Positions 3,001 through 63,770 of a stretch of DNA of 64,000 nucleotides are shown in pieces. The DNA lies in assembly GCA_030141605.1 (NCBI GenBank), contig JAQGDQ010000004.1, forward strand, positions 186,001 through 250,000, written 5' to 3'. How positions within the stretch are numbered: position 1 is the first letter of the stretch; every line of letters begins with the position of its first letter. Source of the DNA: Tubiluchus corallicola. Its lineage: Eukaryota > Priapulida > Priapulimorpha > Priapulimorphida > Tubiluchidae. Below the pieces are notes generated by a model, which was not told the DNA's origin, searched no databases, and saw only the letters and a list, made by a program, of their open reading frames with translations. The position numbers were made by a program, and so were the translations under genes.

Positions 3001-6000
3001 AACTACATCAATCACCGAGGGAAAAGGAGCAGAGTATGCTAAAAATACATAATTATATTTTATAAACTTATTTCTTATTCCGTTTTTATATAGCTACTTT
3101 AACATTTATGTGCCGTGTTGAAAGACTTACATTTATGCAATTACAGAAAATAGTTATTTTATTTTTATTCTGATTTTATATAATAAACTATAATAAAAAG
3201 TACAAAAATGATAAAATAAATTGTTACAGAAAAATAGAATTACTCACCAATAAATTTGTTCTTGATATCATAAATTGTAACGATATTCATCTCCCTCGAA
3301 TGTCCATCTCTAAAATAAATATATGTTCATTCAGTTTAAAAATATTGCAAATTATATGCATAATGTCTTTAAACAAAGAAGATGTGATAAAACAAACGGA
3401 CTTCAAACAAAATTTTGTGTTACTGAATAGTGTACAATAGTCTATAAAAAACAACAAGTATAGTAGCACTGCTTAAGATAGAAAAACAACACTTTTTGCG
3501 TGCAGCAAACATTCAAGGAACTAAACCAATTTAACAGTGAGAAAGACATTTTATTGTCTAGGTTTGCTCATAAAAACTAGGACATTAGTCCAATCCATAT
3601 CTGTAAAGTAGTCTAAGCTGCACTAGCATTATCATTTTAATGCTTTCAAAACTAATGCAAATGATAATGCTTACAAGGTAGAAACTTTGGAAGCAACTTT
3701 TGTTTCTTTGGATACCATGATCAAATAACCTCGAAACCAGTGAAGCTGCACTTTTTCGCCATCAAATGCCAAACATGCACCTCTACCCTCAGGTTGGTAA
3801 AAATAAACTGCCTGTAATTAAGCATACGTCATGATAATGGCAACTATAACAGTTGTATAGTGGTATAGTATATACTGTAATGACCACTATGCCATATACA
3901 GCATAACAGGAACTGTTTAAATGTACATTTGAATAATTACACTAACTTGATAGAATTTGACATGATATTATTTACACCTCAGAGAAGACAAAAAGAATGC
4001 ATGTATATGAAATATTACCATAAAGCATTAATAGTAACAGGAACTGCAACTGGTTTTTGACATATAATCCACTTCGAACTTAAAATTAATTCTTAACACA
4101 GCAAAATCTGTAGCTACACATTTTGAAATCAGTCTTAAAACTCAATTTACTTTTGACAGTTTTCCAAAAAAAATGTTGAAAGATAAAACACATTATACAT
4201 CATTCAGTGCAATTACGTCTCTAAAGCAAAAAAAAACAATGACCTAATCGGTTATCATAGTCAAAGTCACTTAATCATCAGTAATTACACATCACTCACA
4301 GGCAACAAAACATGCCTCACTGTAAAATGATATCTAAGCAAATAATAATAATAATATAGTCTTACATCAGGTCTACCAATGATGAACTGGTAATCCTGAG
4401 AGTCATCACTCATTGTAGAACATTTCAAGTTGCAACCGTGGTGGTCTAGAGTTTGCTGAAAGTAAAATAAGAGTTTTCTTAAAACCACTTACTTAATATT
4501 ATTATTTAATTTTAAAAGTTTAATTATAGTCTAAGTCACATCGTCATATATGAAGTAAAAATGTAAAGTAACTACAAAAATTTTCACAAAATGGCTAGTA
4601 CATGTAGTTTGCCAAAAACTAAATTCAAAAATAAGAAGAAAGAATGAATAAAATAACAAAAAGTAAACAATAAACAAAGTTATCAAAACATGACTATGTT
4701 ATTAGCCTAATTTTACTTTAAGTACTAGTTTACAGTAAGTTAAGACTAAGCAAACCAATAACAGTAAAACTGTGTTTGCTTTCATTCATTGTTATATGTT
4801 TTTGTTGGACAATTATAAAGTTCGTCCCAAAAAACACTTGTGATGTATTAAGCTGATAACTTTTTTGCAGTGCGTTTGATTTACACCCCTACACCCCTAT
4901 GCCTCTACTAGAAGCCATTAAACACTGTAATGAAGCAAAGCTGTCCAGTAAGATAAATCTACTAAACACCTCAAGTGGGGGGGGGGGGGTATGTTATGGC
5001 ATGGTGGCAGTACATTAGACAACTACTAGACTGAATGTATCTTAAGGATACAATACCATGACAACAAACCAGTGGTGGCTTATAGGTAAAATTAGTGGGG
5101 GTGCTGCTTCAGAAAATTTTTAGCCATTGCTTTAATATTGTATAAAATGAAACAAATATGTAAAACAAAAATTTACACATAAACTCCGAAAAATCCTAAA
5201 CAAAAAACCTACCTTACACTTACGTAAAAGGGTCAGCACTGCGTGACAGTGCTCTCCCTCTACTTAGCGTGCAGCTTCTTATCTCAGACGGCCGCACGCG
5301 CACAACAGCCAAACACCGAGTCTTTGTAACTGTGATGCGCACAGTTCCATACAAGGATTTTTGAAATTTTTTCATGAACTAGGACATGGCTACTGAGATT
5401 AAGCTTAAGAATTATATAATGTACAAGTATAAAGGAAGAATTAAAGAAGAAAGACTCAATATTGAGTAAAAATAGGGGGTGCTGCAGTTCCGCAGTGCCT
5501 ATACACGAGCCTCCGTGTATAGGCACTGCAACAAACTCACCAGCATTCCTAAAGGTAAGCTTGCATTTATTCATCAGGCTGCTTGGTCAAATTAATCAGA
5601 TAACCTGATATTTCACAAGAGACAAAAACAACGTGGATAATTCATTACGATATCACACACCCTAGCTTCTTTATCCTTTCCAGTTACATTGTATGATAAT
5701 ACCGTGTCCATCGTAGCCACATAGAGTATAATGTTTTTACCCAGTTGTCGAAAGGCCAGACCAGTAACAGGATGTGGAGACTGATGTAAAATTTTTTGTT
5801 TAGTATGCCTGCAAAGAAAAATACACATCTATTTATATTTTAGTAGCAACAAAATATGAAAAATTGAAAAAAGAATTTTGACAAAATGTTTGTTTAGACC
5901 CAGTTTGTCCAAAAACAAAAATTCACACTGCTTCTTTTGTCAAAAACAGTTCTGCATTAACATATAAATTTGGCAGAATACAAGTTATTGACGAAAAACA

Positions 6001-9000
6001 TTATACCTGTCTCTCGTCACATCACCCTTGAACAAAACCACGCTACCATCTGCAAAACCCACAGCCATCATATTAAGATTTTCTGCAACGACAAGACAGG
6101 ATACCTGAAATACGAAGAATTGTTTTATTTTACACCTTGCTTTATTTTTACCTCAAGCCCACCAAATGCTCTAAAATCAGTATTCTGAAACACGAACAGC
6201 ATTTCATTTTAATGTATAAAGGATTCTTCATATAAACATTACCAGTTTATGAATTCTCACTAAAATTAGCTGTGCTTTACAGCAAAACACCACTAGCCTT
6301 AAACCTAATTAAAGCTATTTTTTTTAAAAAAAAGACCATATTTATTTGTGAAACCAATTCTGACTGTTCTTTAGTGCAATTAATTTCCAAAAAACAAACT
6401 AAAGAAAGTGTATTATAAAAAATAGATAAATCACTTTACGAGACAGATAAGTTGAGGTAGAACAAATAATTCTTACTGGGGTAGGCTTATTGCCTGGAAT
6501 GGCTCGTTCAATTCTGGTGCACATAGGATTCCCCATTCTGTCTAGCTGTAAAACAAAGAATGCAAGAATCAACATTATGATAGTAGAGAATTTACATCAC
6601 ACATTTCTCAAGTTCATGACAAAATCCACGACTTAACATAAAAAAACAACAGGGCACATGATCAATCAAAGGTAACTTGGCAGAGCTCAGAGGGTGATCA
6701 ACTATTCATTATAATTTCTGCCTTGAAGTAATTAAGAATTTAGCAAGTTTCTCACAGGCTGGGAAATAGCTCTGAGAATAGGTGCAAAATCAGCATACCT
6801 AGTTTTATGATATACCTAGGTTTGTAAACTAAATAGATAATTGACACAGATACATAAATAGACAGAAATTGAACAAAATGAGTAGGATAGGAATTCAAGT
6901 ATGAAACATATAAACATACTTGTATTTATTACATACACATACTTACTTTATCTAAATTCCAAACTTTGACCCGTGGATTAATACCAACCTCATCTTCCTG
7001 AAATACAGATCACAGTTTCAAGCTAAAAAAATATTTCATCTAAAAAATTTAAATTTCACCTATAGTAAAAAAATGAATAAATGCATGCATAACATTTAAC
7101 TTGCTTCCAAGGCACTCTGAGTAAATTTTTTTTTGTTAATCGAACAGGCTCTCATTTATTTATTCTACAATTGCAGCTTACAGAGTATTTACTATTTAGC
7201 AGCCGTTATACTAAAATTTGTGCAGTCTATGATTTAGTTTTTATGTGACAGAAGCCTTATGAATTATCAACAGATAATCAGTAAACAATATTAATTACAA
7301 TAATTGCTGTTACTCACCCCAATAGAAATAAGAATATTATGCTGCTTCATCTGAAAGAGATGTGTAGTTCGCAGCACATATGCTTTTAGGCTGTGAACAT
7401 TAAACTGTCTGTCAACAAAATGAACGTTTCCATTAAAGTCTCCAAAAATCATCTGTCCACGTCCACTTGTACAGCAAGAGATTTCATAATCCTGTAAAAG
7501 AAGAAAAAAATCAGAAAAACACCAAAAAATGCTGATAGTCGAACCGGATAAGCCAAGCATATCTATCTATTCAAATTTACTTTAATTTGTTGAAGAACTT
7601 GCGAAACAAAATATATTCTTTCAGTTTGTTTCAGAAATACAGAATTATAGTAAAGCAATGCTAATTTTGGTGAGTCCACCCAGCCTTTACATTAACCTAG
7701 CCAGAAAACCAAGACATAATTGAAAAAACTCGGACCAGTTAGACTGCTGCATCAGTATTAATGGCTTTCAATAACTATATCCATGGCTTCATTGGCATGC
7801 TGCTTTAGTCTTATCTTGCCATGTTCAACTAAAAATGTACAAAAATTCTAGTCATGGAGCCGTGCTTCAAATCAATTGTTGATTTCTGCTGTTTTAGGGC
7901 ATGAACAGCAGAATGGTAAAAATGTAGTTGTTACACAAAAGCATAATGTAACTTATGCAAATCATTGAATGTGGACTAAAAAGGTTCTCTTTGCTGTAAC
8001 CTCACGTGAACTACAGATTGCATTTCAGCCTGCTATCCTTCAAACAGCTCACCCTTGAAAATAAGAACCTGTTCTCAATAAAGTTAAAATTATGCAGATG
8101 TCGACATTACTAAAAGTAGGTGATAAGCGCAAAGGACAAGAAGTTGAATGGTGCACTGCTAATATACATAACTATAATTATACTGGCAGAGGTGCATAAA
8201 AAGAAACCTCGATTGACAGGCTAAGTGCAAAACACATAAAACAAATAATAACGATCATTGAAAACTAGTGATATGGTAAAAACTCACCTTCAGATAATCA
8301 AAAGGCTGTTCAGAATCCGGAATTTTCACAAGTTCTTTGTCAAAAAAGTTAAATCGTCTCCACTGTAAATGAAGTGTATATTTTCATTTTACTTCCAGGG
8401 TACACGCAAGGTGCTAAAGTAATCACTGCTTAAACTTATTGTTTCAGAAATTCAGATTGCTGGTGGCAACCACACATTCGTTTACATGGAATGACACATT
8501 TATTAGAATTGTAGGTTAATACTACTTTGAGTGCCTCTCTTTGCAGGTTATTGGGCTAGACTCAAAAGTTAAGTTTGTAAGTACTTTTTGTAGAATTTGC
8601 ATTGATCAGAGGGTTATCAAATGTCCTGTTTTTTCACAGGTTGTCTCTTTCTTAGTCCATTACCCAGGTTTGCTCAAAAGCTTTTCACAAATAAAAATAG
8701 TGTAATATAAACCAAAGACATGTTTCTCAGCTTCCTCAATGTTGATGTCATCAAGTGTGGATGCATTGTGTATCGAAGGAATGATTTGCTGTTCAGTTGC
8801 CTTTTAGTGTGATTTGGTGAAACATCTACCAGAGCATATAACATTAAATTATCATTATTAGTCTTACTCATATCTACGTGCACTTAGTCTGATTAATTAA
8901 ATCTTGTTGAATGTAGTGAGTACCCTAGGATGTTGGTGCTTATGACAGGGCCTTTCCTGACGACCTAGCTGATTTGTCCCTTTTTTTTTGATTCAGCACA

Positions 9001-15817: not shown

Positions 15818-18800
15818 GGAGCCCCAACACACCGCAAAGTACTACCTCAGATGACAACTTAAGTTTCAAGCATCTGATACCAACAAAGATGCCTCGTGGA
15901 GTAGGAAAAAACATTGCTGCTAATTTTCCTGCTACTAGTAGCCAAAGGTTTGTTACTTTTATTTTACACAGTTGCAGTGCTATATGCATAAATAGGTAAC
16001 TAAAGAGGATATGATAAATTTATTTGGAAATTTGGGTTTTAGAAATCGAAATTTGCAATTTTTGTTTGCTTGAATTTGACTGTAAGCCAGAATTTTGGCA
16101 CTAAAAGTGAGTTTTCCTTTTTTTAGGTTTTTCAATATAATAATAATAATAATAATAATTTCGTTTAGAACACAGTCCAAGATAACATCGTAAGTAACTC
16201 AATACTTATTTCCACCACAGTGGTCCTGATTATTATTACTCACACGTAACTTCGATAAACCCTATCGTGCTTGGTCGAAGAACCAGCGGTACCATTTTTC
16301 AAGTCTTTGGTATGACTTTGTCGAGAATTGAACCCACGACCTCCCAGGTGGTAAGCGAGCATGCTACCATTGAGCTACGCCACCCGGTATAAATATGAAA
16401 TTTGAACAAATGGGACATTGGGAATAAGTTTGTATATGAACCTATTTATATCTGCTACATACTGTAGCCAAACTTATTAACTATTACGAAGACTTTAATT
16501 TCATTAGCTTTTTTATTGCACTAGTCCATCATTGTACTTTCTGCCACTGAAGCCTGTAATTAAGTTACATGTATGCCAAACTGATGATTGTGCTTAAGTT
16601 CATGTATTTATCCCATTTATTTCGAATATATAGTTTACTGCAATAAATTATAAGAAATATAGATATATAGGAAGAAATTTACAGTTTATATATTTATATA
16701 TGCCATTCATTTTGAACATATAGTTTGCTGCAATAAATTGTAAAAAATACAAATATGTAGGAAGAAATTTACAGCATTAGTACCTGCACTAGCACACAGA
16801 AATATATACATAAAAATATTAGTACATAAAACCAAATGGAAGAAAAAAATCACAGTACAAATATATTTATCTTCCACAAACATAGTTCTAACAAATTAGT
16901 TGTCTGTTTGCTCATTGGCTAGCGCAGCTTTTCAAGAAATTTCAGTTTTACTAAAAAGTGGTCCAATAAAAGTCATCTAAATTGCTTGAAAACAACTTAA
17001 CAAATTTGCATGTAATTTTATAAATACATTATGAAGCACAATATTATAACGGAAACCCGGTCCGAATTTACTGTGGAAAGTTTGCATAGCAGTAAGTGCT
17101 ATGCTAAGAAATTTGCGTAGTAAGTGTTGTGCTATGCAAATTTAGAATTGTGTAGCAATCTCATAGTTTTGGTTAACATTTTGTAACTATTGTAAAAACA
17201 AAAACACCTAAAATTAGAGGTGTTTAAATCTTGCCACGTTTTTGACTCGATCTTTACTATCTATTGTTCACATCAAATTTTCATAAATACACCTTAAGGT
17301 TTAGCTACCAAAACATTTATCTGAACAATTCAATACTACAAGTAATTTTAGAGATGAGCATGTAAGTTTAAACTGTGTTTTTTACAGAATGAAATAACTC
17401 CACATAAATTATTTTATTTTAAAAACATTTAATTTCTTGCAGTTGCTTTTTTTTGCTTAGCTATTTAGTTACTTGTATAGACATTTTAAATGTTTTTAGG
17501 GGCACATGATAGTTTTTCATTTCAAAAATCTATTTTTATTATTTAGGAAGTAATGCAACCTCACATATGAGCAATACATGCTGTATAATGTTTTTTTTTT
17601 CATTTTTTAGTAAATTGGCTATAAGTAATATTGATCCCAGCAATGTTGAGGTAGAGTACATAAAAAATCTACAACAACAGATTTACTTCCTAGAACTTGA
17701 AGTCAGCTTTTTATATCCTTTTGTAATTTTTTATGTATTTTGATAAAATGTTCTAACAAAAACATAATATTTGTTAGGTTCTGTTTTAGCTTATGTTGTT
17801 GCTGCTCTGTGCTATTATGTTGATATTTCTAGATGTTTAATTTTCATCACTTGATACTAGATGGCAGCAGCACGACGTGAATCATGAGCTTCACACTTAC
17901 TGGCTCTTGATGTGCGTCTAGATGCGTGGCTTGTGTTCGCGCTTGAATAACGTACGCTGTGATTGATAAAATTGATATTAGCAAAACAAGTTAAACTCAT
18001 TCAACGCTTTTCTTCGTGATGTCTACCACAGTTAAGAGGATTTTGGAAACGTGTTATGTTGTCTACGGCCATACTACGTTGAAAACACCGGTTCTCGTCT
18101 GATCACCGAAGTTAAGCAACGTCGGGCCTGGTTAGTACTTGGATGGGTGACCGCCTGGGAATACCCGGTGCCTGTAGGCTTTTTCATTTTTTGCATAATA
18201 AAAATTTATAACAATTAAGTTGGTCTGACTTAAAATTTATGAGAATACATGATAAGAAAGTTACAAAATTCAGGTACGAATATTATGAAAAAAGTGGTCA
18301 ATAAAATGTTTTGTATCAAGGTTTAATTCAGCAAAGCTTAAAAATATAAAACTTATTGAAATTTCTGTACTTAAGCTATTTTGCTATTGGAAGCAAGCTT
18401 TTTAAATAATTGTCTGCCAAGTTTGAACTACTTCTTAGTGGTCAATTTGTCCGAAAACTCTACTGTTTTAATATACTTTACCTTACATATGTAATTCTAA
18501 TTGCTCTGTTAAATGTTAAGTAAAACAGTTTGTGATGCAGCCAGTTTGTCGGAAAACTCTTATGTAGTGTACATAATCACACTAAATGATAGCTGCATAC
18601 CTAGCTGTATTTTTATATTACTTCTATAGGTGGCAGCCCTGTAGTGTATTGTAAAATGTGTTTTGAATTCCTTACATCATGTACAGTGTTTTAGAATTAT
18701 TTTTATTTTGTTCTATTTTCATTAGTTTGTCGGAAATAGTTATTGACTAATGTTGCTTTTTTATAAGTTTCAGCAGCAGATAAAATTTTTACTACTGCTT

Positions 18801-21800
18801 AAAAATAATTTATCACTTATCCTCCATTTTAGACATGGTTTATAAACCACAAATAGCTAAAAGGTTTTGTGTACATATCATTGGCAGCATCTTTACTGAA
18901 ATGTTTCAAGCAAACAAAAAAGAAACTGCAATTATAAATCCCAGATGTAGTCTGATTTTACTTTTATATTCATGTAATAAACTGTAATGCAAATTGTAAA
19001 AGTACGCTTTCGGAAATACTTGAGAAATGATTGATTAACATTTGAGATTGAACATTTGTAGTTTTGAGTTTAAGTCAGGATTTGATCCTACTGGTGTGAT
19101 ATAATGGTGCAGACTGTATGTCTAGGTATGCAGTAATAATTATGTTTGACTTCATTATTTCTCTATTTTCTCATAACCTGTCTAACAGTTATATAAAAAT
19201 GCTTTCAGATATGTCTGTGATCTAATTCGTATTTAGCAATGTAATCTAAAGTCGCATAATAAAAATTAACGTACGTAAATGTAGTTGACAGTAATAATAT
19301 ATTGAACAGAGTTGAGAACTAATAAAGAGAGGGCTTTGAGAAGTCAAGTGACTTCCAGTTACAATTGCCATTTTACTGACCATAGTAGCAGAACTTCATA
19401 AGTGCAAAAATTAACCTTATGCTGGCAAAGAGTTTGGTAGAAAAGCACCTTTGTGGAAATAGTGATTGATGTTCCTATTATGATGTTTTTATTATGCCTT
19501 AACTTATCACTTACACGAGAGCTGGCGAAGAAGACATCAGATCTTCATCCGGCTATGACGGTAGAAGCTGAAAAAATGCTCTTGAAGTTGCGGGTAAGAT
19601 TTGTTGAAAGGATACTGCCATTATACTTGACTTTATACTACACCTGCCTTGTTATGAAAGCAAAATTAAAAGAGTTATGTGTGTCATGGTTTTCCAAGTT
19701 TTGTGAACTGATGTTTGTTGGCCAGTTTTCACTTTCCTTGCAAATAATGGCTAAGGTTAATGGTGGTAAGATGTTTGCAAGGTTGTAGAATTTTTTACAG
19801 TCTAATCACATTTATTTTAATAATTTAGAGCCTTTTGTTTACCCAACATGTAAAACTGCTGTTTTATAGACTCACAATTTTTTTTAATAACATTAGAAAA
19901 CTTTCTAGCATCTCTAGTGATTTGTTATGAACATAATTGTTTTATTAAATACCAACATTCTGTAGGAATTGCAAACTGAAGTGGATCACCTTCGAGCCGA
20001 ATTACGGAAGAAGAATTCATTGCTGGAGGTAGCAGAAGCAGAGAAGTCAAAGTTCCAGGATAAACTGAGGCATATAGATGGTATGATGTGATTAAAACTA
20101 AAGAGTGACAGAGAGATGATGACGATGACATGAACATATAAACATGCTAATACTGTTTCTGTTGCCATCATTTTTAATTATCATTTCTGGCTTATCTCAA
20201 TCTTAGCTACTCATAGCAATGTATTCTGCCAGCAAAACTTACAGTTATATTGTACAGAGTCTTTTTGTTAGACTAGCATAATGTATGAGAACTATAATGC
20301 AAGGCTTAACTTTAACTTTAATACATTTCTGCTGAAAATTATTAACATAAGAAAACTGTTTTCCCTATGTGAAGTAGTTTAAAAACTTGGTTGCTTTCCC
20401 TTTGTTTCTGACTAGCCAACTTTCATGGAGTTATTCGATTGCACATTTCTAGATGAGAAAAGTCGAAGCAAACGAGTGATGGTTGAAGAATTAATTGACA
20501 TGAAAAAGCAAATTGAGAGTTTAAAGAAAGATTTAACATCAAGAGATGTTGAAGTGCGAGACTTACAATCAGAACTTGAAGAAAAAGATGTTGTCGTCAG
20601 AAATTTGGAGAATAAACTGAAGGATGCTCAGAAACAGGTGATTAAATTGTTGTGCAGCTTTTGATTAAACTAGAAGTAATGGCTTTGTTTCCCCCTGGCT
20701 GTAAATTGCACATTGCTCTTCTGTCATAGAAAGAAACTTTGCTAACATTTGGTTATTAATTTTAATGCAAGAAAAGGCAAAGCTGCAAGGAAGATGAATC
20801 TTTGAGTGGTTTCTGTCTGGGGAAGGCCACATGAATAACAGCATTCTAAAATTTTACACCTGTATTTATGGATCCATAAACTGTAAATTCATGTCAACTA
20901 CAAAAGCATACAAAATATTTAAAATTTTGGGAAATTGATTTTGCTAATCGATTTACAGGTACTAAGCAAAAATTTGTGAGCTTTGTAGCTTTGTCATTCT
21001 GCAATGAAGAAAGAAATTTTATTTTAGATACATTATTCAGAGGAACATCACAACAAGATGCTAATGCAACTTGAAGACAAAAAAGTAGATGCTCTCCGAA
21101 AAGAATCAGCACTAAAGGAATTAGAGGATAAGTACTATAGTAGCACAGCTTCTGTGCAGGAAGCTACAATCAAAGGTTTTAGGGTGAGTATTTTGTCACA
21201 TCTTTAATCTTTTTATCTTACTCTTAAAGTGTTTTCTCAAATATTATTTTTCGTAGAAACTCGATGAATAATCAGCTGCTTGATATTGGTTTATGTTACA
21301 TGTCGTAAACTTATGTAATTTTTGTCTATTTGTCGGTATAAAAACATTGCAAATATAAATTATCTTTTTTAAGATAGTAATTCAAATGAGGCTCAAAATA
21401 TTTTACTAATTGTTGGTAATGTGACTGAGCATTACTACTGACTTTTTCTTTACTTACACGTAATACTTGCCCAGTTTTGCTGAAGTTATTACCGAAACAA
21501 AAATTTTCTTTCGGTTTCCCAATAATTGCACTTTCGATTCAGTTTTGTTTTCTCCAAAAATTATTAACTTTTGTAGTTGAAACTTTCGGTAATGCCGACG
21601 ACTGTGAAGCTTTACAGACACAATTAACCAAAATGTAAAAGTGTAATTTGAACAAAATCAAGTTTCATTTTATAATTACCATCATTATCTTTAAGCGAAA
21701 GCATTGTTCTACCTTTACTTATGTCAGTTTTGATAATAATTGGTTTCGATAACATCCCTGACTTTTTTTTGCGACTGTCTCTTTAACTGAAATTACTTTC

Positions 21801-25133: not shown

Positions 25134-27577
25134 GTATATGTATATGTATATGTATTTTTCATTCTGTGGGGCAAAATTCAAGGTTTTTATTGGTGATGCC
25201 ACCCAGGGCGAGTATAAACCATGGCGGCTACACACCATTTAAGTGAATTGCACACATCTGTCCAGTCTACCAACTCTGTCATAACCCTTTCCTCATTTTG
25301 AAGAATTTTGGTTAACTGGCTATGATTTGACATAGTTGACACAAACCTGAACAAGCCTGAATTACATCCTGGGTAGAAGTCCTCTGTTTGTTCACAATTA
25401 ACCTTCCTGTATGGTTTAACCAGTATATCTTATATTGCTTGTTATTTTAAGTTGGTCGTTGTAATTAGCTTAGTAGAGGACACATAGCAAACATTTTGAT
25501 TAACAACTTGTCATTGACACTTTGACATTGTAAACTCTGCAATATATATCCTGTATATGTTTCAAAAGTTCAGAAATGATTAGAATACCACATTGTCTTA
25601 GGAACGAGCTTTGAAAGAGAAGCAGGAAATCAAACGCACTGCCGAGATTTCGGAGCTAGTCACACTGAGGGACAAGGAAAAAGAACTCCAAGACAAAATT
25701 ACTCATCTTTCATTGTTGCTGGATGAAGAGCGAGCAAAAAGTGAGAGATTTATTGGAGAGGTAAAGCCTTCTTTATGTGTATTAAATAAAGAGACTTAAG
25801 AAGTATCTATAACAATAAATAACTTTGCAAAACATTTTATATAGATTCACTTTCAAAAATCTGCAGCCTTCACAAAATCTGCAAAAATCCGCAACTGAGC
25901 TTACATGAATTTTTGTAATTTTTAGTGATAATAATCAGATTTTTTTATTTTCTTGTTTTGTTTTAATTCACTTATATGAATTAGCATTTTTAAATAATTG
26001 CACATAATAATTTTGACATTATTTCTTTTCGAAAATTCATTCAAAGGAAGACCAGACGATTGTCTAGACTCAATCTCATTTTAATTTACTGTCCAAAATA
26101 TACATTTTCTTGCCTATAAAAGTTAACAATTGTTCCTTATATTTGAATAATTAGCTTAGAAAGTTAATTAATGGCAACCGAACACAGCTATTGCTTGCGT
26201 CAGAAAATAACCACAGTTTGTTCAATGACAGGCATCTTCGCTTGCGTGTGTTACAGTATTGTTTAAACTCATGATGTCACAAAAAATACGCTTTACATCA
26301 TATGATGTCATGAAACTAACACAGCAGTTCATGATCATGGTTATCATGGTACCGCCTTCTATTTGTCAACCACGCGCACGTGACAAAAAGGCGCCGCTGC
26401 CAATCTTAGTAGATTCACTGAGCCGCGCGTAGGTTTGAAAGTTTAACGAAATTTGAGTATCCAAGGTAATTATTATTTAAACTAAGCTTTGATTTAAAAT
26501 AAGCTATTGTAGTTTTCAATATTTTAGAGCATTCTTTATTCTGAACTTGTGTTTACACAATCATCCGGTTTTCCTTTAAAGCCTTGTAGTGCATACTAAG
26601 CTGAACAGTGATAACTCATACTTCTACAGTAGTAATATGCTGCACCCATCGGCTAATTGAATCAGTCGGTTAATTGGGTCAAAACACATCCATACCAAAG
26701 TGAGTCTATTAAGCGGCGCCTTTATGTGTTTGCATTATGGTGTTTATTTTCCTGATTTTCCTAATACTGTTTTGTTGCTGATAAAATGACCATTTTATTT
26801 AAACTGATTTCAGTTTTTTCTAAAATTCGGTCGTACTTTTTCCTACATTCTCATTTAGATTGTATTATCAATTATCATCAAATGAATGTTTGTGCATTTG
26901 TTCAGGTTTCCAAACTGGAACAATTGAGCAGTAGTCAAACCGTAAAGCAGTCATCCTTAAAAAGTAAGCTCAGTGACATAGAGAACCGTCGAATGGTAGC
27001 TGAAAAAGAGGTTGAACGCGTAAAAAAAGACAAAGCAGTTTTAAGTGACCACGTGTCAGAATTACAAGAAAAGGTAAGTGTGCTTATTAAAACCTTGCTT
27101 CACTTTTCAAACTTGCACTGCATGCGTATTGGAATATTCCATGATTTAAATGAATATCAGAATTCTCAATTGTATTTTTGTCAACTGTTTTGAAATATGT
27201 TGGTATGTGCATCGGTTCTTTGTAATAGACATTTAACTTGTTTATCATATCCTTCTATCTTAGCGTATCTGACTAAATACTGTCATTTTATAAGCTAATA
27301 TGTTTTTTTGTATGTGCTATTAAGTGCTAACAAAATTTGTTGACTTATTTGTTCATAGTTAAGGCAAAAAGATGATCACATCTTACGCCTGAAAGCAGAG
27401 TTACATTCAATGCAGACTCGCATCAACTCTCTAGAAGAGGATAGTCATATGCACAGATCTCTACAGAGTCAAAAGTGGGAGGAGTTTGAGCGATTGGCAG
27501 AAAGTATGAAGAATCTGAGTAGAAGTATGAGCGTGAAAGCTGCAACTGCTGCTGCCAAAGATAAACATTTTATTTAG
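15818..27577 (+). CDS. Long coiled-coil protein of unknown name, 11 exons
   Basis: Exons: 15818-15947, 17611-17712, 19515-19593, 19966-20080, 20453-20637, 21028-21183, 21915-21992, 24728-24811, 25602-25760, 26906-27073 and 27359-27577 (stop TAG). All junction phases agree, giving about 491 codons. A polar Ser/Thr/Pro-rich N-terminus (GSPNTPQSTTSDDNLSF) is followed by VEYIKNLQQQIYFLELEVSF and then almost continuous heptad-like Lys/Glu/Leu-rich sequence to the end. The C-terminus is QKWEEFERLAESMKNLSRSM plus an alanine/lysine tail. No catalytic domain, signal peptide or membrane segment is visible. The exons look conserved and coding, but I do not recognise a named orthologue; a cytoskeletal, centrosomal or ciliary scaffold would fit the composition, which is inference. 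The intron after exon 2 is AT-AC. The 5' end is incomplete: exon 15818 needs an upstream partner ending in phase 1. Confidence 0.85.
16137..16388 (-). mobile_element. tRNA-derived SINE with (TAA)n tail
   Basis: Read on the minus strand from 16388, a tRNA-like head carries an A-box-like block GTAGCTCAATGGTAGCATG and a B-box-like block GGTTCAATTC. It resembles a full tRNA up to the T arm but lacks a matching 3' acceptor strand. A body of about 150 nt follows, then a (TTA)n microsatellite tail (16137-16160 on the plus strand). It lies in the intron between exons 15818-15947 and 17611-17712, antisense to the gene. The tRNA head, unrelated body and simple tail together make a SINE far more likely than a tRNA gene. 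Confidence 0.7.
17713..19514 (+). other. AT-AC intron of the minor (U12) spliceosome class
   Basis: The intron begins ATATCCTTTT directly after ...AGCTTTTT, matching the U12 5' splice-site consensus ATATCCTT. It ends ...TTATCACTTAC, giving a terminal AC. A branch-site match CCTTAAC lies at 19497-19503, with the branch A 12 nt from the end, the spacing typical of U12 introns. Splicing these sites joins ...LELEVSF to LRELAKKTSDLHPAM in frame. No GT-AG alternative near the exon end gives a good donor. The intron is 1,802 nt and contains a 5S rRNA gene. Confidence 0.88.
18061..18180 (+). rRNA. 5S ribosomal RNA gene
   Basis: A full-length sequence of about 120 nt starts GTCTACGGCCATACTAC and ends GTGCCTGTAGGCT, whose ends pair to form helix I (GTCTAC with GTAGGC). 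The internal RNA polymerase III control regions are present: an A-box-like AAGTTAAGCAACGTCGGG and a C-box TTAGTACTTGGATGGGTGAC. A T-run begins at 18180, the usual Pol III stop. Eukaryotic 5S genes are normally clustered; only one copy is visible here. It lies inside the U12 intron on the same strand as the host gene. All expected conserved blocks are intact, so it may be functional, though a retro-derived or dispersed copy cannot be excluded. Confidence 0.93.
22715..22835 (+). repeat. Purine-rich tract
   Basis: An intronic stretch made almost entirely of A and G on the plus strand, with repeated GAAAGATA-like units. It is low complexity, and the open frames through it are not credible genes. 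Confidence 0.7.
23551..23660 (+). repeat. Possible pogo/Tigger-like terminal repeat
   Basis: A block beginning CAGTAGGATCTCAGTTACCC directly after a TA dinucleotide, followed by GGATAGTCC and GAATAACCGAGAAAGTCC. This resembles the 'CAGTxxxxCCC..TTATCCGGA' ends of pogo/Tigger elements, which insert at TA. The opposite end was not located and no transposase was seen. It lies in the intron between exons 21915-21992 and 24728-24811. Confidence 0.35.
25064..25155. repeat. (TA)n / (TATG)n microsatellite
   Basis: Alternating TA units interrupted by a short GTGTGTG and ending in TATATG repeats. The YIYIY-type open frames over it in four frames are artefacts. Confidence 0.95.
26590..26720 (+). repeat. 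Possible fragment of a Tigger-like repeat
   Basis: Contains ATCGGCTAATTGAATCAGTC followed by GGTTAATTGGGTC, reminiscent of sequence just inside pogo/Tigger ends. It adjoins an unusually GC-rich patch with CpGs at 26360-26440. It lies in the intron before exon 26906-27073. Evidence is weak. Confidence 0.2.
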
Positions 27578-47817: not shown

Positions 47818-49128
47818 TTATGCAAAATTGTATCTACTGACATCAATTAAGATTCTATGAACGTGAACGTAGTCCACTTTCGGAAAATGTATTGTTACTT
47901 TAACATATAAGCGTATGGTCTGCGGTCCGTCAAATCCTTTTCTTACCGACACGCCACCATTAATAGCGCCTTTCAACACTGCTGTAAAATCTGAACTTGT
48001 TGGACGAAGTTTTCCAGAACAGTTTTCACAGTCAACTTTTATAATTTCAACATCTGTAGGCCGGGAGGTCGGCTGCGCAAGCCTGCCACCAAAGGTGTAA
48101 AATTCGAATCCCTTATGTGGAAGATTCTCATCTTCTGAGCGAAATGATATGTAGTTCACAGTGTATGAGTTTTCACATACAGTGTCAGCGCCACACCGTC
48201 CTGAAGCTACATCTCTGTTGCAGCGAAAGAAGATGGCATTGTTTGTGGTACTCTTTTTATATCCAGCAGAACACTGATGACGTTCGCAAGAAAACCCTCC
48301 AAACTTGTTGAAGCAGACTTCATCTGGCTTACATGGGTTACTCTTACACTCGTCTACATCCTCGCAGCTGCGGCCGTCTGCCCGAAGATGGTATCCCGTT
48401 GGACAAGTACATTTCCAAGTACCCGGTATGTTTTCGCAACGCCACTCACAGTCAGTTACCAAGTAGTTTCCCAGATTACATTCATCAATATCAACACAGA
48501 CAGCCTTAGATATGTGTTTGTCGTTTTTATCAACCGGGTTTTGAAATTTGTAACCATTTGGACACGATAGTGTTTTTTCACTCCTTATATCTAAACACTT
48601 TATGTAGTTGGCTCCAGTTCTACACCTTGGTAAATTACGTTCAACTACATCAACATCAGTAAGTGGCGCTGCAAAAGCAACATTGTTCTTTTTCTCGTGC
48701 AGTTCATTAATCTTTGTGGTTAATTCTATATTTTTCCTTTCAAGATCATTGTTCTCTTCTTGTAACTGTGATATTCTTGCCTCTAATAACTCCGAATTAT
48801 CAGTTAGTGAGTATTGGTTGAATGCCTGAGTGGCATTGTTTCTTTCATGCAGTTTTCTGATTTCTTCATACAGTTGAGCATTGAGAAGTTGAAGTTCTTC
48901 TTTATCCTCTTGCAGCTTGGATATTCTTGTTCTTTGCATTTCAATAAATCCCACCACTAAATCCCCATATATGGGACAATGAGTTTTGGAAACAGTAAAA
49001 TCAAATCTACACTGATCTTGTGGCAACACCCGATTATCAACAAGAATTATTACCAACAAAACCAAAACGCTGCTGGCTAAACTCATGTCGATTAAATCAC
49101 AAAGTAGAAGTTTTCGAACGTAAGGCAC
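47818..49128 (-). CDS. Secreted coiled-coil/EGF/fibulin-C-like protein, intronless
   Basis: A single uninterrupted frame of 436 codons. The second Met (residue 15, 49086) gives a cleaner signal peptide, SLASSVLVLLVIIL, so the mature product probably starts there. Residues about 60-150 form a Leu/Glu/Lys-rich coiled coil. Residues 213-256 (DIDECNLG, then CENIPGTWKCTCPTGYHL) and 257-282 (DVDECKSNPC) are two calcium-binding EGF-like modules with the DxDE calcium motif and a CxNxxGxxxC pattern. The remainder, from HQCSAGY to the end, resembles the fibulin C-terminal module: a cysteine cluster followed by beta-rich sequence ending VHRILIDVSRYNF. Possible N-glycosylation sites are NAT near 98 and NCS near 368. 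The order fits a matrix protein, possibly oligomeric through the coiled coil. Typical fibulins have more EGF modules and many introns; this is short and intronless, so a retrocopy or lineage-specific family is possible. Its neighbours are repeats. Confidence 0.88.
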   Translation of the reverse strand: MPYVRKLLLCDLIDMSLASSVLVLLVIILVDNRVLPQDQCRFDFTVSKTHCPIYGDLVVGFIEMQRTRISKLQEDKEELQLLNAQLYEEIRKLHERNNATQAFNQYSLTDNSELLEARISQLQEENNDLERKNIELTTKINELHEKKNNVAFAAPLTDVDVVERNLPRCRTGANYIKCLDIRSEKTLSCPNGYKFQNPVDKNDKHISKAVCVDIDECNLGNYLVTDCEWRCENIPGTWKCTCPTGYHLRADGRSCEDVDECKSNPCKPDEVCFNKFGGFSCERHQCSAGYKKSTTNNAIFFRCNRDVASGRCGADTVCENSYTVNYISFRSEDENLPHKGFEFYTFGGRLAQPTSRPTDVEIIKVDCENCSGKLRPTSSDFTAVLKGAINGGVSVRKGFDGPQTIRLYVKVTIHFPKVDYVHVHRILIDVSRYNFA

Positions 49129-52578: not shown

Positions 52579-55500
52579 CTTAGTCACACTTTGCAATGTT
52601 TTATGTGCTACGTTTTAAGTAATATTGCACCTTGCAATGTTTTATGTGCTACGTTTTAAGTAATATTGCACTTTGCAATGTTCTAAAGACTACCTTAAAG
52701 GAAGTTATTATTACACTTGTTAAGCATGTAAGAAACCGACGAGGCAAGATTGACTAAAACAGGTTGAACAAAAAAGTTGAGCAAGCGATTAGGTAAGTTT
52801 ATTTCAAAAAGATACCCACAGACCAATCAACCCGGTGCGCCATAATGATACTATACTGTATCAAAAATTTTAAGAATGGTCACAGATTGCCTTCCTCTTT
52901 TGTTTGGAGGGAAAGAACCCTAAAGCTGTTGAAAGGTGTTCTTATGCTATATTGCTGTTTCTTAGCACAGGAGGCATTTTGTACTAGACCTGCAGAGAAA
53001 TAATTTATCCAGACAAGAAGACGCATTCAAAAGACGTTTCGCTCGCAACTGAACAAATGAGCGAGCCTTCAGATTTAACTTTTCATAATTGTCTCTTAAA
53101 TTGGCGACTTTTTGTGAAGTGTCTTGTACGTTCGTCTTTTTCCTAAGGTTTAATATGTGCCTCGCTAATTCACTGCTAGATTGACTGTACCTCTTAAATT
53201 TTACCTTTCTGTGTGGGTATGGATCATACGATCTGTGATCTAGATTATGACCCGCAATCTTCCACGTTGTTTCAATGATCATTTGGTGAGGTACAACAAT
53301 GTTTCAGGGCGCCAAGTTATTGCTTTCTATCCTAAATAACGTTTAAAACTTTGACTGAAAAACAAATAAATTCGTCAAGCTACACTGTATCAAAATTGGT
53401 AAAAAAAATCGTCTTGCAGTTTACAATTTATTTATTATATATCTATGAAACGTTATAGCAACTTTGACTAACAGTTAAGATTGTAGTGTCCATCAAAATT
53501 TTATGCTTTTTGTGTATTAACAGCCAAGCCATACTAAATTTAACTTAAATTGAGTTAGCAATAGAAAAGTTATGTCAACCATGATTGATCACCTCATCCA
53601 TCAACAACTGGGAAAACAAATGAATGTACAACAACAATTGTACCATTCGCAAAGCAATTCAGATGCAGTAACACCAGATGAAATTCTTTCTAGTTTGTAG
53701 AGGATTATGAACCAACTAAAGCTGATTCTTATCGCAAGAAGATATCTCTAAACGGCAACGATGCCCAGATTGACATTCTCGATACTGCTGGACAGGAAGA
53801 CTACACTGCCATCCGGGATAACTACTTCCGGTCGGGAGAGGGTTTTCTCTGTGTTTTCTCTCTCACGGAACGAGAATCGTTTGCAGCAACTGATGACTTA
53901 CGGTAAGCAGAAGTACCCAGACGAACATCGAGGCCTTTCTCTGCCAGTCTTGGCATCTTCTCACGCCTTAATCATACGTGCGTCCTTCCTTGTAGAATTC
54001 CTGTTAACAATACGTTACCTAGGAATTCCAGTTGTGCTTGATTTAGCAATAATTGTTTAAATTGTGGTAAACAAGGCTTTTGAAAATCGTGGCCTCTTCA
54101 GATTATGCGCTTACCTATCCGTTACTTAATAACTACATCTTACCCAGATTTGCTACTAAGTGCATTCACGAAACATTTATTGGCATTACCAAAATTTGTC
54201 TTCATAGTTTTTACATTTTAGGTTTTTTTGGTAAAATTTTGTGTTTTTAGCTCTGCGAAGCAGTTTAGTTATGTTAATCCATAATGAAACAAAATAGTGA
54301 TTTAATGTTTAAAATGATCTTTTAATGAGCGTCTAATTAATTTGTGCCGCTTAATTTGAAATGCTTATTAAATTTTTAGTTTAAGTGAAGTGTTTATTTA
54401 TTTTAGGCTAAATCAAATGTAAACAAGAAAAATGATTTGGCCTGGCGGGTCCAGTAGAGCTAATTTATCCATCACAAATGCTTGACCAAAGTTAGACGAT
54501 ATTTATAAAGTGCGTCGATGTATCATAGTGTATCACAGCAAATTTCTGTGCATTTTGTTTTTTTTCTGGGCAAATTTCTTGACATTTTGACACTTATTGA
54601 TTGTTGACTACTGGTCGTTGATCAGTAGGAGTAGTCTCTTGTCCTTTAAACAATTTCGTTTCTTGGCTGCCCAACTGTCCGGAATACAATTACGAATAAC
54701 TACGCCCTTTATGGGTAACTTACCCTCTTGTACATCTCTTGTTAGGGATGTTTAATGGATCTTATTTCACAGCAGATAGAGGCTGTATCATTATTTAATA
54801 ATATCAATAATTTTTTTTTCAATAATAAATAATTGATTAATCATTGATAAGTTGAATTTTTTAGTCGGCCTACTTTGTTTTTTCACATTTATTACTTGTA
54901 GTGCTTCTGATTTGGTTAGTGATCGCGAATTGATTATTTAAAAAGTGCCCTGTATTTGGTCTTGCGACTGTGCATTACCATACTACGTATTTTTTACGAA
55001 TTAATGTAAGAGGGGCTGGTACGAGAATAATGATAATTTTTTTATTTACTCCTCTATTAACAGGCCATTGCTGCAACTATGATGAGAGAATATCTATGTC
55101 GTTCGTTGCAAAGCTTCATTTTCTCTGAAACAAGGCAATAAATCGGATATTCTGATTTGATTTAGGGATCAGATTCTTCGAGTGAAGAGTGAAAGCAGTA
55201 TACCGTTCGTCCTTGTTGGCAACAAATCTGATCTTGTAGACGCCAGGCAGATAACCATGGAGGAAGCCCAACAGCTGGCAGATAAATGGAAAGTTCCTTA
55301 CATAGAAACCTCTGCGAAAACAAAAGAGAATGTGGACAAGGTAACAGAAACAGGACTGAATCCTTTACTCATGTTAGATAACCATCACTAGTTAAAAACG
55401 TGTACGTTTGAAACAACTGTTGCACTCTGCCTTCATTAATTATAGCTAAACAAAACTACATTTATGTTTAGCCCTGTAGTAGATTAGTACATACGTATGC

Positions 55501-61200: not shown

Positions 61201-63770
61201 GGCATATGGAATCTGGCTGAAAACCGTGAAAATTTATTGAGAAATTTGTAAATCATTCTTTGAAACTAGCTCTCTAGGTGAAAAATTTCTTCCACGAAGA
61301 AGAAAAAGTTTTATTGGTGAAGTACTAGTAATAAGCAAAACAAAGTATCATGCAAATGGGTCAGATTCAGAACGGTATAATGGTATTAATGAACTGAACA
61401 TATTTTGTGGGAGAAACATATATTACAGTATGGTCCGGCAAATTTAGACATATAAGGCTTTAGCGTAAGGAGGTCCTAATTTAATTGAGTAAAGGACGAA
61501 AGTTCAATGATGGAGTCCCTGAGCAGGGACATGTTCTGGAAATATTGTTAAAATGAAAATTATTGGCCACTCACTTGCGAAGTAAGCTATAAAGAGGTCT
61601 GTTTCATCGTGATATTGTTGGTTTTTCGTTCTTGTTCATATAATGTTATTTTGAATGACTTAACAGCACCAACGGAAGGACATTACCCGAAACAATAGCA
61701 TTTTACTAAAGGCGAGCAAAATGTACGTTCATACATATACATAAATGCGTGCATATGTACGTCCGTGTGTGCATGCGCTTGTGCTTAGGTGCACATAATT
61801 CAATGCTTCGTATTCCAGATCTATTTTGTTAACAGTGCAATGATTGGAAAACATTTGTTCCATCCATTTACTAACCAGGCCCAGTAGTGACTAATTTCGG
61901 TCGTAAAATGTTCAACACTTACCTGCAACACTAATAACGTTCACTATTCGTCCTTTGGATTCACGTAGCAACGGCAGAAAATGTTGAGAGACGTTCTGAA
62001 CACCAAGCGTATTAACTTCTAATCATTTTCTAAAATCATTGGTATCTATCCATTCTGATGGTGCCAACAATGCAATCCCAGCATTATTCACAATTGCATG
62101 AAGATCTGTAATATAAACAAGCATTGATCATTCACTTTAAGTGACTAGACAGTTAGCCACACAGGGAATCAGCCAGCCACTCACGCCTCTGCATGCTATT
62201 TGGTGAAAACATTGTGCATAAAGTTTAAATACTTGTGTAAATCACTTCTGCCTGCAAAAAGAGGCCACTTGTTACATATACATAAGTGAAACCATAGATA
62301 CATAAAATTTGTCATCATCATCAAGTAGTCAGTCATCAGTCGATCACCAGATACCCAAACACAGTGAGCAAAATAGACACAAAATTGGTAGTCACTCTGA
62401 CAATTAGAAGCGGTTCCTGGGCTCAGTGAAATAAGTAAGCATAATTAAAGTTTTTTATGTATTAGCTTTCCTGTAAAATATTAAATTATATGTAGGCATA
62501 TTTCAACATTTGGAAAGACACAATATACATATGTAATGATTATTTAACAAACTTTGCAGATCTATGCAAAGATAAATCAAAAATCACGTACGCTTTCCGT
62601 TTAGATTCTCCTTTACATAAGCCAATGCGTTCCTAATACTTTGATCAACTGTAACATCAAGCTGTACGATATGCAACGAGCTTGAACATTCCCTTTTCAA
62701 TTTCAGTGCCTCATCCTTTTCTGAAAACAAGCATCCGGCAAAAACTGTAAGGCCGAGTTCGTCGAGTTTCCTAGCTATTTCATTGCCGAAGCCTGTGTCA
62801 CAACCTGGCAGAAAGAAAAAGTTGGTTAATTATTTGAGAATCGGAGAATTTGCCGTTTATTTACTTCTCTTTAGATTTTAAATTCTTTCTAATTTTCCAC
62901 CTCACACTACTCGCGATATAACTTCGAAAGACATTAAGTAATGACGCATAATATATGCAGTATGTGTAGTAGTAGTAAAAATCTAAGAGAAGAAAATTAT
63001 AAGTCATCAGCTCATCATCAACAGCAGCATCGTTATCACTCCTATCTCCACCGTCATAGTTGGCATATCATCATCATCATCCTGAAAAGCTAAACAAATA
63101 GGGAGAAACACCTACTTAAAGTTATAAAGTCAATTGCAAATTTACATTTTTTTACATTGCAAATTCTGTTAAAATTTTTGTAGTAGGCATTCGTTACTTA
63201 CGCTTAATATCTCTGCTTTACTCGTCTTTACTTTATTTACTTTTATGCAAGTTTAGTACATATACAAATCGTAACAAATGCATGGATTGCAGAAGCCGTC
63301 AATCTTCTACTAGCTTATAATGTTATTAGATACATATGTCCAAGGTAGCTCTTATACAGTCGTTATATACACACATAATTGGAGCGCGAATACAATAAGA
63401 AGATATCATTTCTTCCCATTTAGCAATCTAAGATACCTGTTACAAAGACACATTTCCCCGGCGATGAGACGTACTTTATCTTTCTTCGTCGTTCATAAAT
63501 CTTGCAAAAAACGTAGAATATTGAATAAGAAATAACAAGTTTAAATATCAACGTAAGAATCCAGTGATCAAACAAGAGTGTAACAAAAAATATACTAGCA
63601 AATGCAAAAAAATACGCTACTCTAGTGTGTTTATCTTGTTGATTCATTTCAGCGGTGTTGCTTGTGCCCATACAAGAAAATTGTGTAGTTTTATAGCTTG
63701 TGCGTACTTTGTGCTTGAACTTTGCACTTCGTGAATAACATACTAACAGGGTACACCGGGGCAAGGACAT
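58280..63770 (-). CDS. Short-chain dehydrogenase/reductase (SDR9C-like) with an in-frame TGA
   Basis: Exons: 63437-63770, 62592-62804, 61923-62105, 61084-61216, 58725-58890 and 58280-58462 (stop TGA). All phases agree, giving about 403 codons. A hydrophobic N-terminal segment (AYFFAFASIFFVTLLF, then LVISYSIFYVF) precedes the Rossmann core VFVTGCDTGFGNEIARKL, the cofactor-binding TGxxxGxG. NNAG, then NVISV, and the catalytic YSMSK (YxxxK) follow, then INVISIEP. The C-terminal half resembles the retinol dehydrogenase/17-beta-HSD/BDH1 group, NAD(P)-dependent oxidoreductases of lipophilic alcohols, probably membrane-attached. In exon 3, TGA (62023-62025) replaces a residue in DFRK-x-LEVNTLG, where family members have an ordinary hydrophobic residue. 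Everything else is intact, so this is a recent nonsense allele, a sequence error or a young pseudogene. Met34 (63671) or Met42 (63647) are alternative starts. Confidence 0.85.
59280..60530. other. Intron of the dehydrogenase gene with likely repeat DNA
   Basis: Part of intron 58891-61083. Internally related phrases recur (CAGCCATATTTTAGC, AACAGCCATCTTGTTGACC, ATAGCTGCCATGTTACTG), suggesting an old repeat. The open frames 59584-59838, 60122-60304 and 60170-60521 show no recognisable family. Confidence 0.35.
63066..63081. repeat. Short (ATC)n run
   Basis: ATCATCATCATCATC within the first intron of the dehydrogenase gene. Confidence 0.8.

Follow-up and report, generated by a model that had tools for sequence, protein, structure and literature searches.

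A very probable U12-type AT-AC intron in a predicted coiled-coil protein gene, and minor-spliceosome genes in the same genome

The analysis indicated that positions 17713..19514 of the window (the whole 64-kb stretch of DNA analyzed here, C1024:186001-250000) are very probably a functional minor-class (U12-type) AT-AC intron within a gene that encodes a long coiled-coil protein. The window has the cis signals and a joined frame that stays open, and the genome carries the four minor snRNA genes and pieces of CENATAC; it is the exact cis signals together with the minor snRNAs and the CENATAC pieces that make a working U12-type AT-AC intron very probable; we infer that transcripts are spliced at 17712/19515 by the minor spliceosome. 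The points against it are a mismatch in the branch region, 44 other in-frame stop-free junctions and pairing energies that are only modestly unusual.

Intron signals and exon join

The preceding exon closes with ...CTTGAAGTCAGCTTTTT and the intron opens with ATATCCTTTTG (Table 1), the donor agreeing with the U12-type AT-AC donor consensus ATATCCTT(T/C). The branch word lies inside the region TGCCTTAAC, which matches eight of the nine bases of the U12 branch consensus TTCCTTAAC, an element located a short distance ahead of the 3' splice site; the second A of the word (19502) lies 12 nt upstream of 19514, where the intron ends, and after the terminal AC the next exon starts with ACGAGAGCTGGCG. 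The intron is in phase 2, and the predicted spliced junction, ...CAGCTTTTT + ACGAGAGCTG, is open in only one of the three frames, in which TT/A encodes Leu and the peptide reads LELEVSF-L-RELAKK (KLAISNIDPSNVEVEYIKNLQQQIYFLELEVSF-L-RELAKKTSDLHPAMTVEAEKMLLKL). The sequence-only reading had described this donor, the CCTTAAC with its A 12 nt from the end, the AC and the join of LELEVSF to LRELAKK, and its coordinates were right to the base; its label of a textbook intron is slightly generous for a branch region with one mismatch to TTCCTTAAC. Phase 2 is also consistent with published work in which minor introns are biased against phase 0 (PMC10639083, PMC7367187).

Table 1. Positions in the window of the predicted intron, its flanking exons and contents, and the neighboring genes
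Feature	Position	Strand	Basis
VPS11 piece, neighboring gene	5985-7566	-	Pfam
Upstream coding exon, ends in phase 2	17611..17712	+	Open frame after TTTTTTAG
Predicted U12-type AT-AC intron, 1802 bases	17713..19514	+	Motifs, simulation, junction listing
5' splice site ATATCCTTTT	17713..17722	+	UCCUUUU could pair with U11 5' end and with GAAAGGA of U6atac
Full-length 5S rRNA copy inside intron	18061-18180	+ (host strand)	RF00001, 109.8 bits
Branch word CCTTAAC, branch A 19501 or 19502	19497..19503	+	Could pair with UGAGUAAGG of U12, one A bulged
3' splice site AC	19513..19514	+	Sequence read
Downstream coding exon, then GTAAGA	19515..19593	+	Open frame, splice-like edge
Calcium-binding EGF domain protein piece, neighboring gene	47818-49128	-	Pfam
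Ras-family GTPase piece, neighboring gene	53694-55391	+	Pfam
Short-chain dehydrogenase piece, neighboring gene	62584-62829	-	Pfam

The motif set at the AT-AC intron is uncommon by chance. On the + strand of the 64 kb, the donor word occurs twice (17713 and 27247), and so does CCTTAAC (2467 and 19497). In 100 simulated 64-kb strands generated by a second-order Markov model, the donor word had a mean of 0.82 and the branch word with AC a mean of 0.69 per strand, while the pair, counted where CCTTAAC lay no more than 5 kb downstream of a donor and an AC ended 10-13 nt beyond the branch A, was found in three strands, a pattern that was chosen after the match was known. The simulation ignores the placement of the signals on two open in-frame exons, and the real coincidence would thus be rarer.

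The number of stop-free in-frame junctions near both edges was 45 (21 GT-AG, 5 GC-AG and 19 AT-AC, with 17712/19515 counted), so that frame alone is weak evidence and it is the motifs which mark out 17712/19515. If the true intron instead belonged to the common U2 type (GT-AG or GC-AG), with its edges shifted slightly, any of the GT-AG and GC-AG junctions would keep the frame open, and the nearest GT donors past the upstream exon, GTAATT at 17723 and GTATTT at 17735, are close at hand. Measured against the U2 consensus GTRAGT, however, both are weak donors. The AG acceptors listed within the downstream exon (ends at 19521, 19530 and 19533) have purine-rich surroundings without a pyrimidine tract, and acceptors further upstream (e.g., 19440) would make the branch word and the AC coding. 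A U2-type intron would moreover leave the U12 signals as a coincidence, and we consider it highly unlikely.

Minor-spliceosome genes in the genome

The genome (343.5 Mb in 2344 contigs) was searched for snRNA families, which were scored against the Rfam cut-offs. The sequence-only reading had suggested looking for U11, U12, U4atac and U6atac, and all four families were found above their cut-offs: U12 with one match of 105.9 bits, aligned across all 151 positions, U6atac with two matches (112.4 and 74 bits), and U11 and U4atac with one match each (101.7 and 86 bits, respectively). CCDC84/CENATAC was represented by three pieces on one contig (C2008), with scores of 54, 34 and 31.4 bits for a cut-off of 25.3; in human cells, this protein promotes splicing of the AT-AN class of minor introns (PMC8280824). 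No match for U12, U6atac, U11, U4atac or CENATAC was obtained in 14 control genomes, which is a weak control since at least 11 of the 14 are prokaryotes. The cis signals and these predicted minor-spliceosome genes together support the U12-type AT-AC class that the sequence-only reading had assigned.

The U4atac sequence CCGUCCUU is complementary to AAGGACGG of U6atac, and the candidate partners of the donor and of the branch region are given in Table 1. Random words of the window (n=5000) paired equally well in 6.0% of cases for U11, 3.1% for U6atac and 2.5% for U12; these pairing energies are modestly unusual, and are therefore supporting rather than strong evidence. By the established mechanism of minor splicing, the donor's CCTTTT would base-pair with U11 and the branch word with U12, U6atac, once released from U4atac, would take the place of U11 at the donor, the branch A would attack the donor, and the exons would then be joined at 17712/19515.

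The weaker of the two U6atac matches (L003, G000:C1024:835508-835631; the 74-bit copy) has its donor-pairing word altered and is perhaps a pseudogene.

Host gene and place among known introns

Downstream of the intron, open exon-like blocks encode a coiled-coil-like protein. The best Pfam match of the hand-joined exons, a Centrosomin N-terminal motif, was rejected at 21.9 bits, below the cut-off of 28.5 (E 0.0002), other Pfam matches were weaker and all under cut-off, and a search of PDB sequences gave no match at E <= 1; the host gene is left unnamed because of these sub-threshold Pfam matches and the lack of a PDB match. A crude codon-score scan for upstream exons yielded no convincing chain. 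The same missing family and PDB matches would fit a decayed or mispredicted gene with no intron at 17713..19514, as would the codon score of the exon ahead of the intron, which is the lowest of nine (4.9). Against this, the open blocks have splice-like edges and run on to a stop near 27577, and codon scores were positive in all nine exons, although the scale was partly trained on the same exons and the positive scores are thus circular. We regard such a gene as extremely improbable.

The U12-type AT-AC intron shares with animal introns of this class the donor ATATCCTTTT, CCTTAAC near the 3' end, the AC terminus, a phase other than 0 and minor snRNAs in the genome, and differs from them in the one branch-region mismatch to the consensus and in the 5S rRNA copy that it contains. 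With U12-type GT-AG introns, which are removed by the same spliceosome, it shares the donor core and the branch word, while the terminal dinucleotides are different. Among human minor introns, about a quarter are of the AT-AC subtype (PMC10639083, PMC8280824; about 26% according to PMC10639083), and an AT-AC intron is on this account ordinary here: it is a correct example of a known intron type and raises no new biological question. What it adds is one well-supported AT-AC minor intron in a genome that also carries pieces of CENATAC and the full set of four minor snRNA genes. This is of use in annotation, since a gene finder that accepts GT-AG introns alone would fragment the host gene.

5S rRNA copies in the intron and elsewhere

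The 5S copy inside the intron, to which the sequence-only reading did not refer, is followed by a T run. It spans 120 bases, the only such length among at least 47 5S places scored genome-wide, the others spanning 119, and it carries six substitutions and a one-base insertion relative to the majority of 20 compared copies. Several of the substitutions also occur in the L012 copy on C2123, which is also the closest genome match among the matches listed, self excluded. In the 20 compared loci and 50 other listed 5S matches, similarity covers at most query positions 342 to 491, i.e., the 5S, the T run and short extensions, and this confinement argues that the intron copy is a dispersed one of many in the genome, perhaps a pseudogene. 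For a possible origin as a retroposed RNA, the two flanks were compared and no direct repeat of 6-12 bases was found between them. There is only a very slight chance that it is an active polymerase III gene, sitting within a U12 intron that is spliced slowly, and that it affects host expression. Among the titles and abstract openings listed for intronic 5S copies or nested 5S genes, none dealt with 5S inside a U12 intron, although this does not prove that no such report exists.

Elsewhere in the intron, positions 18431-18769 have 74% identity to one place (C1738:484917-485242) and may be an old dispersed repeat. For the remainder of the intron, no other copy was among the matches listed, in a search that skips very common words and scores the best candidates only.

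Three of the 20 compared 5S loci (L021, L022 and L025, from about 1501) belong to a dispersed family in which a 5S-like head leads straight into a shared body, and which looks like a 5S-derived SINE. L021 aligns with L022 over 558 columns and with L025 over 482, about 86% alike with the head included, and 22 of the 52 listed 5S matches end at query 469, where the body is expected to start (a hand count, most by end position alone). Membership of the intron copy in this SINE-like family was rejected, as its next 520 bases matched the L022 and L025 loci at chance level (best E 0.11). The family body begins with TTGCGGGATGCCC, a 13-base word also present in the 3' part of the U12 snRNA gene (L001:1618-1630), which may be chance.
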